Both the position numbers and the translations under genes were made by a program. The notes beneath the pieces are model-generated. The model saw only the letters and a program-made list of their open reading frames with translations, made no database searches and was not told where the DNA came from. Below are positions 23,678 to 41,091 of a DNA stretch of 64,000 nt, piece by piece. Where the stretch lies: positions 1 to 64,000 of the forward strand of contig NZ_JXQM01000013.1 in NCBI RefSeq assembly GCF_000832065.1. The letters run 5' to 3'. Numbering within the stretch: the first letter of the stretch is position 1; each line of letters begins with the position of its first letter. Origin of the DNA: Nitrosospira sp. NpAV (GTDB taxonomy: Bacteria; Pseudomonadota; Gammaproteobacteria; Burkholderiales; Nitrosomonadaceae).

Positions 23678-24225
23678 GTCTGATGTTTCTATCCGGTCCG
23701 CTGGACCTGGGCTGCCGCCAAACCCGCGCCGGAAGGCGGGGCGAACTTCTCAAGGCAAGTAGAATTTTCCTGCTGCTCGTCTTGGTGCTCGCACTTCCTT
23801 CGAGTTGGGCCAAAGAAGCCGCGCCGGTGGCGGAGGATCCGGAGATTGAGCGGCGCATGATTCATCTATCTGAAGATCTGCGCTGCCTCGTATGTCAGAA
23901 CGAATCGCTGGCGGGTTCACGGGCGGATTTTGCCAACGACCTGCGACGTGAAATCCGTGAGCAAATGAGAGCAAACAAGAGCGACAAGGAAATTATCGAT
24001 TTTCTGGTCGCCCGGTATGGCGATTTCGTGCTTTATCGCCCACCGGTTAAATCCACAACACTATTCTTGTGGTTTGGCCCGTTCATTTTTCTGGCAATAG
24101 GGGCGGTACTCCTGGTGGTTTATCTCAAACGCCGCCGCAGGCAGATTGAAGACCCGGTGCTATCCGAGCACCAGCGCGAGCAGGCTGAAGCCTTGCTAAA
24201 GGAAGGCAAGGGTAACAACGCATGA
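23674..24225 (+). CDS. ccmH: Cytochrome c maturation protein CcmH (CycL domain)
   Basis: A 183-residue periplasm-facing oxidoreductase of the heme lyase complex. The redox pair is Cys71 and Cys74 in LRCLVCQNESLAGSRADFAN, the canonical LRCxxC motif. A signal segment (IFLLLVLVLALPSSW) lies about 30 residues in from the overlapping ATG, so translation may start later than 23674. A C-terminal TM anchor (LFLWFGPFIFLAIGAVLLVV) ends the protein. The CcmI part is a separate gene, unlike the fused E. coli CcmH. Confidence 0.93.
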   Translation: MSLMFLSGPLDLGCRQTRAGRRGELLKASRIFLLLVLVLALPSSWAKEAAPVAEDPEIERRMIHLSEDLRCLVCQNESLAGSRADFANDLRREIREQMRANKSDKEIIDFLVARYGDFVLYRPPVKSTTLFLWFGPFIFLAIGAVLLVVYLKRRRRQIEDPVLSEHQREQAEALLKEGKGNNA

Positions 24226-25547
24226 CATCATTTTGGGTTGTAGCCGGCATTTTTATTGTCGGTGCTCTGCTGTTCGTGCTTCCTACGCTGCTGAGAAAGA
24301 AAAATCATCAAACCGGCACGGCACGCAACTCCACCAATATCAGTATCTATCGTGATCAGCTGGCCGAACTCGATAACGATTTGCGCAGCGATACTCTGAC
24401 ACGCGAGCAATACGAGCAAAGCAAGCGGGAACTGCAACAGCGGATGCTGGAAGACATTCCCGACGGAGAATCCATGACAACAGCTACGCTGATGGCCGGC
24501 GGCAACCGTAATGTCGCGACCATTGCACTGGTGGTACTGGCAATACCGCTGCTGGCGGTTTCACTGTATCTCTGGCTGGGCAATACGCGGGCGCTTACCC
24601 CGCAGCCCGCTGCCGAGCAAATGCCCATGGGGGGAATGACGGACGAAGGAGGTCATCAGAATTTTTCGACGGTACTGGAGAACCTGACCGCACGCCTCAA
24701 GGAACAGCCGGATGATGTGGAAGGCTGGATCATGCTGGGACGAACCTATGCAATCATGCAGCGCTTTCCCGACGCCAAGGTTGCCTATGAGAAAGTGATG
24801 GCCATGGTCCCGGAAAACGCGGAACTCCTGACCGATTATGCCGATATTGTTGCGATGACGAACAATGGAAGCCTGATGGGGCAACCTCTGGAACTGATCA
24901 ATAAGGCGTTGCGTCTCGACCCCAAGAATCCCAAGGCGCTGGCATTGGCGGGCACGGCCGAATTTGAGCAAAAAAGATTCAGCCAGGCGGCCGTATACTG
25001 GGAACAATTACTGGCACTCGTCCCGCCGGAGTCCGAGTTGGCACAGTCTGTAAGCAACAGTATTGCCGAAGCAAAATCATTGGCTGCAGGAAAAGGCAGC
25101 ACACTGGCAAGGGCACAGGAGCAGGCGCCGGGAGGTCAAAATCCTCCGCCCGCCGGGAACAAGCCGGGACAGGCCGCCGCCGCGGGCGCCGCTGCGTCGG
25201 GTGACGGCACGCTTTCCGGAAAAGTAACATTGAGCCCCGCCATGGCCGGTAAGGCGTCTCCCAATGACAGCTTGTATGTTTTTGCGCGCGCCAAGGCGGG
25301 TCCGAGGGCGCCGCTGGCGACGCTGCGCCTGCAGGTCAAGGACTTGCCAGCGACTTTCTCGCTGAACGACTCGATGGCCAGATCCGGCGTGCAGCTATCC
25401 AGCTTTCCCGATGAAGTGGTGGTAGGTGCCAGAATCTCAAAATCCGGATCTCCCATGCCGCAAAGTGGCGATCTGCAAGGCTTGAGCCAACCCGTCAGGG
25501 TAGGTGCCAAGGGGATTGATGTGGTAATCGATCAGACGTTACCCTGA
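24222..25547 (+). CDS. ccmI: Cytochrome c biogenesis TPR protein CcmI
   Basis: A 441-residue apocytochrome chaperone. Two N-terminal TM segments (VVAGIFIVGALLFVLPTLL and IALVVLAIPLLAVSLYLWL) flank a cytoplasmic loop with NISIYRDQLAELDNDLRSDT. A periplasmic TPR region follows (EQPDDVEGWIMLGRTYAIMQ, NPKALALAGTAEFEQKRFSQ). A Pro/Gly/Ala linker leads to a C-terminal beta-rich domain (LSGKVTLSPAMAGKASPNDS) found in the longer CcmI proteins. It is the last gene of the operon. Confidence 0.92.
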   Translation: MTSFWVVAGIFIVGALLFVLPTLLRKKNHQTGTARNSTNISIYRDQLAELDNDLRSDTLTREQYEQSKRELQQRMLEDIPDGESMTTATLMAGGNRNVATIALVVLAIPLLAVSLYLWLGNTRALTPQPAAEQMPMGGMTDEGGHQNFSTVLENLTARLKEQPDDVEGWIMLGRTYAIMQRFPDAKVAYEKVMAMVPENAELLTDYADIVAMTNNGSLMGQPLELINKALRLDPKNPKALALAGTAEFEQKRFSQAAVYWEQLLALVPPESELAQSVSNSIAEAKSLAAGKGSTLARAQEQAPGGQNPPPAGNKPGQAAAAGAAASGDGTLSGKVTLSPAMAGKASPNDSLYVFARAKAGPRAPLATLRLQVKDLPATFSLNDSMARSGVQLSSFPDEVVVGARISKSGSPMPQSGDLQGLSQPVRVGAKGIDVVIDQTLP

Positions 25548-25746: not shown

Positions 25747-26187
25747 TCATGGCTGTGGCCGGAAATGGGTTTTCATATTTTCCAGGCCGTAACCGCGACG
25801 CGTATCAATGCTGAATGCGCCGGCGCCAAAGGCCGCTACTTGGAGCAGCCCACCCGTTATCGCGATATTCTTCAACAGCATGATGAATTGGGTCTGGTCG
25901 CCGATGGCGTTATGAAACAATGCACCCGCGGCCACGGTAAAGGTAGCCAAAGCCAGTGCGGCAATGCGTGTCCTGTAGCCCAATGCGAGCATGAGGCCGC
26001 CAATGATTTCCACGCCTATGGCGATCGCCAGCACCAGTGCCGGAAAAGGCAAGCCGATCGACGCGATATAGCCTATGGTCATTTGCGGAGCGGCGGCTTT
26101 ACCGAAGCCGCTTATCAGGAAGATTGCCGCCATCATCAGGCGACCGACCATTGGAAGGGCGGGAAGTGCTTTTTCATTGCTGTTCAT
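25747..26187 (-). CDS. DoxX family membrane protein
   Basis: A 146-residue protein with four hydrophobic segments and the family signature GRLMMAAIFLISGFGKAAAP, then LPFPALVLAIAIGVEIIGGL. DoxX-like proteins are linked loosely to redox stress and thiosulfate oxidation, but no activity can be assigned here. An AAGGAG site precedes the ATG. It follows the pirin gene by 59 bases on the same strand and is probably cotranscribed. Confidence 0.88.
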   Translation of the reverse strand: MNSNEKALPALPMVGRLMMAAIFLISGFGKAAAPQMTIGYIASIGLPFPALVLAIAIGVEIIGGLMLALGYRTRIAALALATFTVAAGALFHNAIGDQTQFIMLLKNIAITGGLLQVAAFGAGAFSIDTRRGYGLENMKTHFRPQP

Positions 26188-26246
26188 GGCAACTCCTTAA
26201 GTAAGAGTAATTAATTGAGGGATCCGGATATGACGACGTGGCGGCT

Positions 26247-27143
26247 TCAGGCGGAATACTCAGGAACCCGAATGTGGCGTTTTCGATTGAGTAGGTTCTC
26301 AGATTGAATCTGCCGGCCGATCCTTCTGATTTCAGCCTCGCCACGTTCGAGCGCCTCAGAACTCGTGTGCACGGAGTAGTAACCCAGGGCCAATTCGTGG
26401 GGATGCCCGATGGAAGAGCCAAGGATAAATTCGGTATCTCCATTCGCGCCGAAATCGATGGCTTGGCTTGACTCTTCAAATACAGCAATCTCGTTTTGCA
26501 GCGTCCAGTCCGCGGTGCGTAGTTTTCCCCGGTGCGTAGCAACCCAGGCGACGATGTGACCGGCTGGCGGCTGGTAGTGCCAGCGTTCGCCATCCTTCAG
26601 GCGTACGTGCAGATAATTCATCGGCATGCGAGTCCTGATCGGGCTCTCCGCCTGGCCGTACCGGCCGAGAATGACGCGCGCCGGGCCGCTCGACGGCACT
26701 TGCTCCGGAGAAAGGTACCGGCTATACGCTGATCCGTTTTCGTCTTCCGGGGGCAATGCCACCCATAGTTGATAACCCTTCAAGCGTTCGCCCCCGGCAA
26801 TGCCACCGCCATGCCATACCCCGCCGCCAGCATTCATCCATTCGACGCCGCCCGCGGACAGTATTCCCTGCTTGCCGGTGCTATCGTAATACCCGGTCTT
26901 TCCTGACAGCGGCAGAGTCACGGTCGCGATGCCAGAATGCGGATGCATGTTCATCGGGGGTCCACCTGGCGCCACGTCAAAGTAGTCGAGAAACACAAAA
27001 GGCTTGATCAGATTACCGAGATCGGATGGGCTGACGAGACGAGTCAAGCCCCCATGGTTGCTGCCCTGGGTGCGATCACGCACACGCCGCTCGGAAAGGG
27101 TATTCCTATTGAAAAAGAGTGTGCCTTCAACGATTGCATTCAT
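26247..27143 (-). CDS. Pirin family protein
   Basis: A 298-residue bicupin. The N-terminal metal site motif is MNMHPHSGIATVTLPLSG, followed by GGVEWMNAGGGVWHGGG, and the C-terminal pirin domain carries the HIVAWVATHRGKLRTADW stretch. Bacterial pirins include quercetinases and regulators of central metabolism; the substrate here is unknown. I place the start at the ATG at 27143 because GGAG lies seven bases upstream. A GTG at 27155 is in frame but would contain that site. It forms a unit with doxX, divergent from a LysR regulator. Confidence 0.9.
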   Translation of the reverse strand: MNAIVEGTLFFNRNTLSERRVRDRTQGSNHGGLTRLVSPSDLGNLIKPFVFLDYFDVAPGGPPMNMHPHSGIATVTLPLSGKTGYYDSTGKQGILSAGGVEWMNAGGGVWHGGGIAGGERLKGYQLWVALPPEDENGSAYSRYLSPEQVPSSGPARVILGRYGQAESPIRTRMPMNYLHVRLKDGERWHYQPPAGHIVAWVATHRGKLRTADWTLQNEIAVFEESSQAIDFGANGDTEFILGSSIGHPHELALGYYSVHTSSEALERGEAEIRRIGRQIQSENLLNRKRHIRVPEYSA

Positions 27144-27262
27144 TTTTTTCTCCACTTGATTTATGTCCTTCTAGCATGCGTGTTTCGATCTCGAGAGCAC
27201 GTATCTGGATTGCTTGAGTGTGTTTCCGTATTTCTGAAGTGACATGTTAAATACTGGATTAA

Positions 27263-27289
27263 TATCTGTGAAGACTATATATTTAGATA
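27263..27289. promoter_or_regulatory. Possible LysR-type operator
   Basis: In the divergent pirin/LysR spacer, TATCT (27263-27267) and AGATA (27285-27289) form an inverted repeat across 17 bases, in an AT-rich stretch just upstream of the regulator gene. Position and form fit an autoregulatory LysR site, but this is inference. Confidence 0.35.
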
Positions 27290-27312
27290 CAACATATCGT
27301 TAGGAGAGATAG

Positions 27313-28203
27313 ATGCTCGATGCGATGTCCTTAGATCAGCTGCGCACATTCATAGCTGCCGCGGATGAGGGAAGTTTTTCGGCTGCCGGTCGCAAATTGC
27401 GCCGGGCGCAGTCGGTCGTAAGCCAAACGCTGGCCAATCTGGAACTGCAAGTAGGGTTTACTTTGTTTGATCGAAGCGGCCGCTATCCTAAACTGACAGA
27501 GGCAGGGAAGGCATTGCTCACGAATGCGCGCGTCGTCATCAGTAGCATGGACGCATTCAAGGCAAAGGCGCGAACCCTGGAAGAGGGGTTGGAACCGGAA
27601 TTGGCCGTCGCTGTCGATGTGATGTATCCCATTGCAGCATTGACCGCGGCGGTGGGCGAATTTCACGAAGCTTTCCCCGCGATGCCGCTGCATCTATATG
27701 TCGAGGCGCTTGGCGCGGTGATGCAGCCCGTTCTGGATGGACGCTGCCGCATCGGGATAACCGGCCAGGTTCCCGAGGTGCCGGCAGACTGCGCTTCCGA
27801 TTATCTATTGAGTGTGCAAATGGTGACGGTTGCGGCGCCGTCTCACCCATTGGCGAAACAAGCGGGTGCCGTTGCCCGAACCGATGCGGCCAATCACATG
27901 CAGCTTGTTCTTACCGATCGTTCCACTCTGACGGACGGGCGCACTTTCGGCGTTCTTGCGTCACAAACCTGGCGGCTCGCAGACTTGGGCGCGAAACACG
28001 CATTTTTACGGGCGGGTTTGGGTTGGGGCAATATGCCCCTGCCAATGGTCGAGGACGATCTGTCGCGCGGAACCCTGGTTCGTATCGAACTGGAGCCGTA
28101 TTCTGTTACCGGCACCTGGCTTTCCATGTACGCGATTCACCGCAAGGATACGCCGCCCGGGCCGGCGGGCCGGTGGTTCGTGGAAAAATTGAAGCAAAGA
28201 TAA
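27313..28203 (+). CDS. LysR-family transcriptional regulator
   Basis: A 296-residue regulator. The N-terminal winged helix-turn-helix is LDQLRTFIAAADEGSFSAAG then RRAQSVVSQTLANLELQVGF, and the C-terminal two-lobed effector domain begins near residue 90 (LEPELAVAVDVMYPIAALTA). A GGAGAG site sits seven bases before the ATG. It is divergent from the pirin-doxX unit, which it probably controls. The 3' end faces the tandem repeat array. Confidence 0.92.
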   Translation: MLDAMSLDQLRTFIAAADEGSFSAAGRKLRRAQSVVSQTLANLELQVGFTLFDRSGRYPKLTEAGKALLTNARVVISSMDAFKAKARTLEEGLEPELAVAVDVMYPIAALTAAVGEFHEAFPAMPLHLYVEALGAVMQPVLDGRCRIGITGQVPEVPADCASDYLLSVQMVTVAAPSHPLAKQAGAVARTDAANHMQLVLTDRSTLTDGRTFGVLASQTWRLADLGAKHAFLRAGLGWGNMPLPMVEDDLSRGTLVRIELEPYSVTGTWLSMYAIHRKDTPPGPAGRWFVEKLKQR

Positions 28204-28280: not shown

Positions 28281-29010
28281 AGGCGTATAGTTTTCCTATG
28301 CAATGACGAGCAACGTGCATGGCTGTTCAGCGAACCCTTAAAAATGACGAGATTGGTGCCAGGCAAGGCGCGAGGAGGCGCATAGTTTTCCTATGCAACG
28401 ACGAGCAACGCCGCATGGCGGTCCAGCAAACCCTTAAAAATGACGAGATTGGCGCCAGGCAAAGCGCGAGGAGGCGTATAGTTTTCCTATGCAATGACGA
28501 GCAACGTGCATGGCTGTCCAGCGAACCCTTAAAAATGACGAGATTGGTGCCAGGCAAGGCGCGAGGAGGCGCATAGTTTTCCTATGCAACGACGAGCAAC
28601 GCCACATGGCGGTCCAGCAAACCCTTAAAAATGACGAGATTGGCGCCAGGCAAGGCGCGAGGAGGCGCATAGTTTTCCTATGCAACGACGAGCAACGCCA
28701 CATGGCGTCCAGCAAACCCTTAAAAATGACGAGATTGGCGCCAGGCGAGGCGCGAGGAGGCGCATAGTTTTCCTATGCAACGACGAGCAACGCCACATGG
28801 CGTCCAGCAAACCCTTAAAAATGACGAGATTGGCGCCAGGCAAGGCGCGAGGAGGCGCATAGTTTTCCTATGCAACGACGAGCAACGCCACATGGCGGTC
28901 CAGCAAACCCTTAAAAATGACGAGATTGGCGCCAGGCAAGGCACGAGGAGGCGCATAGTTTTCCTATGCAACGACGAGCAACGCCGCATGGCGGCTATCT
29001 CGTCATTTTT
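28281..29010. repeat. Tandem array of eight 95/96-bp units
   Basis: The phrase AGTTTTCCTATGCAA recurs at 28289, 28384, 28480, 28575, 28671, 28766, 28861 and 28957, so the period is 95 or 96 bases and eight units are present with only a few differences each. There are no unique spacers, so this is not a CRISPR array. The last unit (28913-29010) is a complete 98-bp element bounded by terminal inverted repeats, AAAAATGACGAGAT and ATCTCGTCATTTTT. In the other units the right end is replaced by a CCAGCAAACCC-type junction. The array fills the gap between the convergent LysR and ctaA genes and ends two bases before the ctaA stop codon. Both strands are open over short frames, but these are by-products of the repeat. 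Confidence 0.97.
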
Positions 29011-29012
29011 AA

Positions 29013-30023
29013 CTAGCGAAGCTGGTGATTGACCCAAAGGGCGGCGGTAAACAGCAGCAGCGCGCCAGCCTGGTGGGCTGCCGCCAGCGGTAGCGGAACA
29101 ACCAGCAGCAAAGTGGCAATGCCGAGACTTATCTGCACCATCAGCATGATCAATAGCAGATTGCAGGCAAGATGGGCCGAACCGGGAAGCGGCAGATTTT
29201 TGGATTTAAACCAGAAAATGGGTACCAGAATCGCCAATGTCCATGCGATCAGGCGATGATCGAATTGTACCGTCGCCATGTTATCGAAAAAATTGCGATA
29301 CCATGGCTCCAGCATGAATATCTCGGGTGGAATGATGTGGCCGTTCATTAATGGAAAGGTGTTATAGGCCAGCCCCGCATGGATACCCGCCACGAACCCT
29401 CCCGATAGAACCATGACGAAAATAAGTGTGGTAAGTCCCAGGGAGAAGCGGCGCAAACCTCGCAACTTTATGTTCCCATGCGATATGTCGGCAGGAGAAA
29501 GCAACCCTAGCGCCACCCGGAACATCGCGGCATAAATAATGAATGCAAGCCCCAGATGGGCTGTCAGCCGATATTGACTGACATGTGGATTATCAACCAG
29601 ACCGCTTTTTACCATATACCATCCCATCGCGCCCTGCAATCCACCCAGCACGAAAATTCCTGTCAGCTTGAGGCCCAATGGCCGGTCAATTCCTTTCCGG
29701 GCGAGAAAATATACAAATGGAATGAAGAAGGCCAATCCGATAACGCGTCCAAGCAGCCGGTGAAAATACTCCCACCAGAAAATGCCCTTGAATTCCTCCA
29801 GGCTCATGCCGAGATTGACTTTTTGGTATTGAGGTGTCTGATGGTATTTCTCGAAAAGCACTTCCCAATCGCTTTGACTGAGGGGAGGAATCGTGCCGAC
29901 GATGGGTTGCCACTCGACGATGGAAAGCCCTGAGTGGGTAAGCCGCGTTACACCGCCGACAACCACCATGGCAAATACCAGCGCGCAGCAGCTCAACAAC
30001 CAGATGGCAATGGGTTTTTGCAT
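29013..30023 (-). CDS. ctaA: Heme A synthase (COX15/CtaA family)
   Basis: A 336-residue inner-membrane enzyme that oxidises heme O to heme A for aa3-type cytochrome oxidase. About eight TM segments are visible. Conserved motifs are [20 protein letters not shown], the histidine helix [31 protein letters not shown] and [13 protein letters not shown]. Length and motifs match the proteobacterial COX15 type. It is downstream of smpB on the same strand, with an 80-base gap. The repeat array begins immediately beyond its stop. Confidence 0.94.
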
Positions 30024-40593: not shown

Positions 40594-41091
40594 CGAAAAT
40601 CGCCGCTGTTTGTCTCCTGCAAGCTTAGGTTCATCGACAACCGCTTTATCTCATCCATGCCCATCCCTCCTTCTCGACTCATGTCATATAAGTAATCGTG
40701 AAATAATCCTTCAGGATCTCGCTGAGATCTTATGCAATCATATTATTTCATGCCGCCGCCTTCACCATCAATCCTGATTGTATTTCTCTTACATCCTTAT
40801 CTCCGTTTCCTCGTCGCAACCCTTCCGTCATAACCTTTCCTATGAGAGCCGCGATACTTTCAATAGATCCATGAGGCACAGGCTCGCCAATCCTAGGCCT
40901 GCGTCAATTGTCACCTGTGACAATGCGTCGCATGTGACAAACCGCCGCATGTGACAATATGCCACATTGATTTGTTGATATGGATAATGAATACTCAGTC
41001 GTATTGGTCTGGCTGACCAGCCTGACCGATGTGCTGTTTGCATTTCCATTATCCAGTTAGTTGTCCAACAATATTAATCAAGAGGCTCCGT
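40594..41091. promoter_or_regulatory. Upstream region of the PEP-CTERM gene with iterated GTGACAA sites
   Basis: About 500 bases without a gene. At 40908-40923 a 16-bp palindrome pairs TTGTCAC with GTGACAA across two bases. GTGACAA recurs at 40934 and 40951, so three copies are spaced exactly 17 bases apart. CAATATGCCACATT follows at 40955-40968. The same 14-mer follows a related palindrome at 42088-42102, upstream of the next gene. This looks like a shared regulatory region for exported proteins. Confidence 0.65.

Follow-up and report, generated by a model that had tools for sequence, protein, structure and literature searches.

The gap between a LysR-type regulator gene and ctaA in Nitrosospira sp. 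NpAV was found to be filled by a tandem array at 28281-29012, made up of seven units and a 57-bp partial unit. We consider it likely that this array is a minisatellite which arose, in the ancestor of three species, from one old insertion of a short element at the 3' end of ctaA, the putative terminator in the last copy being kept and the truncated copies being carried along as passengers. The window analysed here is a stretch of 64,000 nucleotides (positions 1 to 64,000 of contig NZ_JXQM01000013.1), and its genome is called G000 below.

A preliminary description of the sequence had reported eight near-identical units at this place. Tandem Repeats Finder (28281-28994, period 95, 7.5 copies, 95% matches, score 1260) and a split of the sequence into units, from which the unit starts and lengths in Table 1 were taken, agreed that the array is real, but the number of units was seven, and the supposed eighth was the partial unit only. 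All seven units begin with the same letters, TTAAAAATGACG. The six truncated units and the partial unit have no right arm, and the BLAST match of the truncated units to the element covers about the first 82-84 nt. The ends of these seven right-arm-less units were CCAGCAAACCC in five cases and CCAGCGAACCC and TTCAGCGAACCC in one case each, and a junction, mostly GTCCAGCAAACCC, leads each truncated unit into the next left end. Open reading frames in the array repeat mechanically and the 95-bp units shift the frame, which means that the array has no coding capacity. A separate small tandem repeat (17 bp x 2.5) lies at 40916-40958.

Table 1 Positions in the window of the array units, the second element copy and the neighbouring genes
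Feature	Positions	Strand	Basis or remark
Partial distal unit, left ~40 nt missing, at junction with LysR-side DNA	28281..28337	+	Tandem Repeats Finder; BLAST 91% to element positions 39-82
Truncated unit 1, 96 bp, without right arm	28338..28433	+	BLAST, split, covariance model
Truncated unit 2, 95 bp	28434..28528	+	BLAST, split, covariance model
Truncated unit 3, 96 bp	28529..28624	+	BLAST, split, covariance model
Truncated unit 4, 95 bp	28625..28719	+	BLAST, split, covariance model
Truncated unit 5, 95 bp	28720..28814	+	BLAST, split, covariance model
Truncated unit 6, 96 bp	28815..28910	+	BLAST, split, covariance model
Complete element, 102-bp imperfect palindrome with conserved core	28911..29012	+	fold; covariance model 96 bits
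Left terminal inverted repeat TTAAAAATGACGAGAT	28911..28926	+	sequence
Right terminal inverted repeat ATCTCGTCATTTTTAA, T-run on + strand	28997..29012	+	sequence
Second, single element copy, directly after guaB (IMPDH) TAG stop, before guaA	33164..33264	-	BLAST, covariance model
ccmI/cycH-type gene, convergent neighbour of ctaA in four relatives	24222..25547	+	family match
DoxX-pirin-LysR block	25747..28203	.	missing between ccmI and ctaA in G003, G007, G013, G016
LysR-type regulator, lineage-specific neighbour	27313..28203	+	ORF, family match
ctaA (COX15-CtaA), TAG stop abuts complete element	29013..30023	-	ORF, family match

Only the unit adjoining ctaA is complete, a palindrome of the form TTAAAAATGACGAGAT...ATCTCGTCATTTTTAA with GGCAAGGCGCGANGAGGC-(hairpin)-GCAACGANGAGCAACGC at its centre. 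As described before, it carries perfect 14-bp inverted repeats (28913-28926 / 28997-29010; 16 bp if TT/AA are counted), and AA are the two bases between the repeat and the ctaA stop (29013-29015). Its folding energy was -46.2/-46.4 kcal/mol on the two strands, with z values of -6.1/-7.6. The unit is noncoding and stays below the limit of about 300 bp for MITEs with its 102 bp and 16-bp terminal repeats, and the element is dispersed over three loci of G000, the third being found by BLAST at C45:12034-12132. The copy on the guaB side sits inside an apparent guaB-guaA pair, and the model matched in the same gap in G003, G007, G015 and weakly in G001.

ctaA was present in all 23 genomes of the genus, and the covariance model placed the element beside it in five, namely G000, G003, G007, G013 and G016; a weak match beside ctaA in G014 (E 0.037) is a possible remnant. 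The site holds seven units and the partial one in G000, seven in G003 (six by the model, the most distal seventh being a 73% BLAST match), three in G007; G013 and G016 have a single, complete copy each. In a ctaA+guaB tree, which leaves out the ctaA of G010, the array genomes G000, G003 and G007 grouped together with a support of 1.000, within a six-genome clade (support 0.946), five of whose six members have the element at the site. The exception is G015, and the possible remnant in G014 lies outside the clade, a distribution that requires either losses or more than one insertion. BLAST matches to the unit were obtained in 9 of the 23 genus genomes and in at least 13 of 125 family genomes (up to 7 candidates per genome scored); there were 16 in G015 and 17 in G016, and most of the fetched ones were inside a longer form. 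With two more loci in the assembly and these further genomes, the unit passed the check that other places carry it, and dispersal in the genus together with single complete copies at the same site in two relatives supports the earlier proposal that a small noncoding inverted-repeat element turned into a tandem array. The series of 1, 1, 3, 7, and 7 plus a partial unit at one orthologous site would present a palindromic mobile-type element on its way to a bacterial minisatellite.

Comparison of the first 78 nt of the units gave a mean identity of 95.8% within G000, 85.8% within G003 and 86.1% within G007, and 85.1, 85.3 and 82.9% between the three species, so the units are homogenised in G000 only. 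Identity to the complete unit rose in G003 from the distal side towards ctaA (0.71, 0.83, 0.91, 0.94, 0.94, 0.96), and no such gradient was seen among the units of G000 or G007; the G003 units next to ctaA look youngest, judged by their sequence. We also compared the junction with the DNA before the first unit and found that the match was no better than in shuffles (196/1000 as high in G003, 664/1000 in G007), and an origin of the junction from duplicated flank plus element is therefore not supported in these two genomes.

According to the reading we prefer, a short noncoding palindromic MITE-like element would have come to adjoin the ctaA stop in the ancestor of a Nitrosospira subclade, and in the three-species ancestor the element minus its right arm, together with roughly 12-23 bp of other DNA, would have been duplicated in tandem. 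Array size may then have changed both ways by slipped replication or unequal exchange, and growth and shrinkage probably took place mainly near the intact ctaA-proximal copy; we infer slippage as the motor. The intact copy would have been retained, plausibly because its A-tract/stem/T-tract hairpin is the ctaA terminator, and the truncated copies would largely be passengers.

The family matches confirmed the genes named earlier on both sides of the array, but LysR is not the ancestral partner of ctaA, because ccmI faces ctaA in G003, G007, G013 and G016; in G000 the DoxX, pirin and LysR genes separate ccmI from the array. Over the first 154 nt of the G003 spacer, which is 308 nt long, the G000 spacer after ccmI aligned at 77%, and then the match stopped. 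Since the block is missing in four relatives and the spacer match ends in this way, the partial unit at 28281 is probably the place where the DoxX-pirin-LysR block joined the array.

The core of the element was not restricted to Nitrosospira. When one genome per species was scanned, the core pattern was found in at least 120 stretches, 80 of which were examined, and the matches listed belonged by record to Thiobacillus/Hydrogenophilales, Massilia, Roseateles/Pelomonas, Polaromonas, Nitrosomonas, Herbaspirillum and other betaproteobacteria, with a few records labelled Gammaproteobacteria and one Salinicola. The core had no match in viral contigs and the window unit none in phages or plasmids; one Burkholderia record in the plasmid collection matched the Thiobacillus form. 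A covariance model, partly trained on Nitrosospira members, found family members in at least 15 of the 23 genus genomes (up to 150 candidates per genome) and in at least 61 of 276 genomes drawn from the class, the window genome included (up to 14 candidates per genome). The highest number in the genus was 54 matches, in G007; G001 had 22, all classes being counted in both.

In an alignment of 40 sequences, the arms were paired in 91.3% of cells, whereas shuffles gave 61.8%. The covariation score of 0.736 (shuffles 0.188) was reached by none of 500 shuffles, although the shuffles ignore relatedness. Sliding the partners by 1-3 columns lowered the score to 0.107-0.213. The conserved internal loop has CGANGAG facing CGAN'GAG, in which N and N' covary (G-C 28, C-G 4, U-A 4, G-U 1, other 3), and two stacked G.A pairs may lie on either side of the N-N' pair. 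It should be noted that 28 of the 40 rows came from an exact-pattern scan, which means that conservation of the core is partly a result of selection of the rows; the arms and the N positions were free of this constraint. No description of the core family was found in the literature searched, most subscription papers being outside the reach of the search, and this suggests that the family is uncatalogued.

Around this core we found quite different ends. The short Nitrosospira palindromes, the window element included, have ends TTAAAAATGAC (type a); a Nitrosospira form of about 200 bp holds the same palindrome within outer ends CTAGTGTAGTGAGTCAGAGATATC (type b); a 167-bp Thiobacillus form ends in CTAGTGTCGTGAATCAG (type c), Massilia elements in GAACCTATCCCAG (type d), and the N-class of G007 and G001 (loci L328-L367) is of type CCTAAATCCGGTAGTTGGAC... 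(type e). In the long form b, the left end was CTAGTG in 15 of the 28 copies listed and a variant of it in the rest. Among 25 gene stops at 50-60 nt from the core in the wider family, 19 were TAG, 14 of them inside CTAG. The G015 copy at guaB has TAG on both flanks. Elements of the IS630 family duplicate TA on insertion, and CTAG is the preferred target of an IS630 transposon according to the title of a reference in the available text of PMC2170065, so forms b and c, whose CTAG/TAG ends match these target habits, look like IS630-type MITEs by analogy. The IS630-type transposase domain PF13358 (DDE_3) was absent from G016 and present once in G015 (80% complete), where the fetched flanks had no such ends; long-form ends were absent from both DDE_3 loci found, and an IS630 transposase as driver was rejected for lack of association at these two loci. 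Of four orphan end-like matches, those in G014 and G021 were not elements and those in G015 (C178 and C170) were partial or degraded long copies. Thus no autonomous parent with the same ends was found with the end pattern in 23 genomes, the four orphan ends, the two DDE_3 loci and 30 Y1 loci. Structure and dispersal agree with a MITE, and target duplication and a parent transposase lack such support, hence the sequence evidence suggests calling the ctaA element MITE-like.

Four hollow copies of the long form (L277, L278, L280 and L281) have lost the inner palindrome and are joined, as judged by eye, at the direct repeats TTAA, AA, AAG and AAG, respectively. These are probably natural palindrome deletions, as slippage on a hairpin would give. 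L277 fits an empty TTAA site; L278, L280 and L281 look like deletions with differing breakpoints, and independent insertion of the short element into the longer one was rejected since slippage loss explains all four.

Several other explanations of the array were weighed. An assembly artefact, whether in the array itself or in its copy number, is extremely improbable, even for a window genome that is a 315-contig draft, because the orthologous site holds 7 units in the one-contig G003 and 3, 1 and 1 in the other relatives, and the arrays of the one-contig and two-contig relatives differ in unit sequence from that of G000. The array could also be kept by selection, as repeated bidirectional terminators or as a buffer between convergent units, and the site does lie between convergent genes in the four relatives as well. 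At other loci, the family is seen preferentially at the 3' ends of genes. Of 80 elements, 20 lay at locus edges, and the 60 that could be classified were in convergent (28), tandem (26) or divergent (6) context, compared with 71/194/74 ordinary gaps, for which another ORF filter was used, so the enrichment is indicative only. This count leaves out ORFs over the core; in a first count, 29 of the 80 elements fell inside ORFs (judged spurious), 22 were tandem, 14 convergent, 3 divergent and 12 at the edge. A scan gave six terminator-like sites in the array against 2.1 expected (sd 1.5), of which two are in the complete unit (one per strand) and four in truncated units 2, 4, 5 and 6, all of the latter on the strand leaving ctaA and with stems of five pairs only. 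However, four of the six truncated units, folded singly, were no better than shuffles (z +1.05, -0.13, -1.09 and -0.28, minus strand), nor was one folded on the plus strand (z -0.91), and they have no T-run on the + strand. The distal units of G003 have decayed to 71%, and two relatives carry one copy only. We therefore regard selection on the repeated units as unlikely, and nothing about the array as a whole calls for a function. The earlier idea of an array of terminators or small RNAs was not borne out, since among the units folded only the complete one gave a strong hairpin. This unit is a predicted intrinsic terminator with a stem of -46 kcal/mol and a U-run on either strand, and its A-run, long stem and T-run at the ctaA stop make it a plausible candidate for the ctaA terminator.

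An RNA role of the core, in which a transcribed palindrome binds a protein or RNase with its conserved loop and the array is a source of small RNA, would agree with the covarying arms and with the covarying N-N' pair inside the conserved loop. G-U pairs also prevailed over A-C in the Nitrosospira N-class (15 v 5 pair columns in 20 sequences, 31 v 5 cells), and within the family this bias may point most clearly to a role as RNA or single strand; the Thiobacillus class gave 30 v 17 columns (28 sequences) and 47 v 30 cells, but the window class was near even by columns (16 v 15, 39 sequences; 48 v 31 cells). These counts are based on 20 of the 40 N-class loci fetched and on 28 of the 80 loci from the scan, and include no Massilia sequence. 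Neither orientation to the adjacent gene was preferred, since the 42 gene 3' ends lying no more than 70 nt from the core were evenly divided, 21 running with it and 21 against it. At the ctaA site, the right arm is missing from six units and from the partial one. Rfam gave nothing over the gathering score at the window site or at ten related loci; at the ten loci no match fell on an element, and the window site had three sub-threshold miRNA matches at chance level (E 0.64-1.3). RF02278, which we take to be a betaproteobacterial toxic small RNA family and whose likeness to the core lies in being betaproteobacterial by name, was rejected, with no match in G000 and 0/125 genomes over the cut-off. 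An RNA role is thus improbable in our judgement, and a small-RNA role in the class of the window is not supported. REPINs have a length near 100 bp. If the ctaA element were of this REPIN/RAYT type, a Y1 transposase would mobilise the hairpin, and the tandem clusters would arise as in the REPINs of Pseudomonas fluorescens, noncoding dispersed hairpins which sometimes occur in tandem with flanking DNA and for which hairpin excision is reported in the available part of PMC3116915; Y1 transposases were indeed found in 9 of 10 genomes tested. This is very unlikely all the same. None of 30 Y1 loci examined (of 49 matches) had a family member nearby (model, E<=0.1), so the Y1 transposase was rejected as driver at these loci, and G003 has the array but no Y1 match at E<=0.001. 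The REPIN is defined by two conserved REP sequences (PMC3116915), whereas in the ctaA family the conserved part is central, the ends vary and one core is common to different ends. Another REPIN feature is a tag, GTAG or CGTC, next to a short REP stem (PMC3733652).

The preferred reading, in which one old insertion slipped into a minisatellite, has partial counterparts in known systems, and by analogy the ctaA array would work like a REPIN or MITE slipped into a minisatellite. The IS630/Tc1-mariner MITEs described in the available text of PMC2170065 resemble the long Nitrosospira and Thiobacillus forms, with inverted ends that are often CTAGTG and often at TAG stops; in contrast, the short element of the window lacks the outer ends, and the genomes tested had no IS630-type transposase with such ends. 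In Porphyromonas gingivalis, a minisatellite within a MITE likewise ties a repeat array to a miniature element (PMC4596501, as far as its available text goes), whereas what is repeated at ctaA is the element without one of its arms. BOX/RUP/SPRITE, Correia/NEMIS and ERIC, small bacterial repeats of which some are terminator-like (PMC10969869, PMC3733652, in their accessible parts), can be set beside the core family by description only. Taken alone, the array would be a modest curiosity, and an uncatalogued covarying core shared by several end types adds to its interest. The larger point is that one internal loop with covarying arms occurs with quite different ends from Nitrosospira and Nitrosomonas to Thiobacillus, Massilia, Roseateles and Polaromonas, which would mean either that one factor recognises the fold or that common ancestry outlived the element ends. 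A wider reading, possible but doubtful, is that the array unit belongs to an uncatalogued hairpin superfamily extending across the Betaproteobacteria, with the shared module GGC-AA-G-GC-GCGANGAG vs CGAN'GAGC-AA-C (N/N' covarying). The arms and the mobile ends would then have been exchanged again and again, the module would be under selection by a conserved host factor or by a trans-acting transposase that reads the folded single strand, and slippage on the hairpin would lead to tandem arrays as at ctaA.

Tandem arrays appear to be uncommon in the family, since no same-strand model matches less than 300 bp apart were found among the 80 pattern-fetched loci from other organisms. A second array of the same family was found elsewhere in the genus, at G020:C33, with a period of 76 and 2.9 copies (three units); two units were counted by eye in G002 and a single one in G001, and the last unit alone had, again by eye, a complete right arm. 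It would be another case of an element that became a minisatellite. In the Roseateles and Pelomonas records (L161, L202, L188, L178 and L157), we also saw inverted pairs of elements about 100 bp apart.
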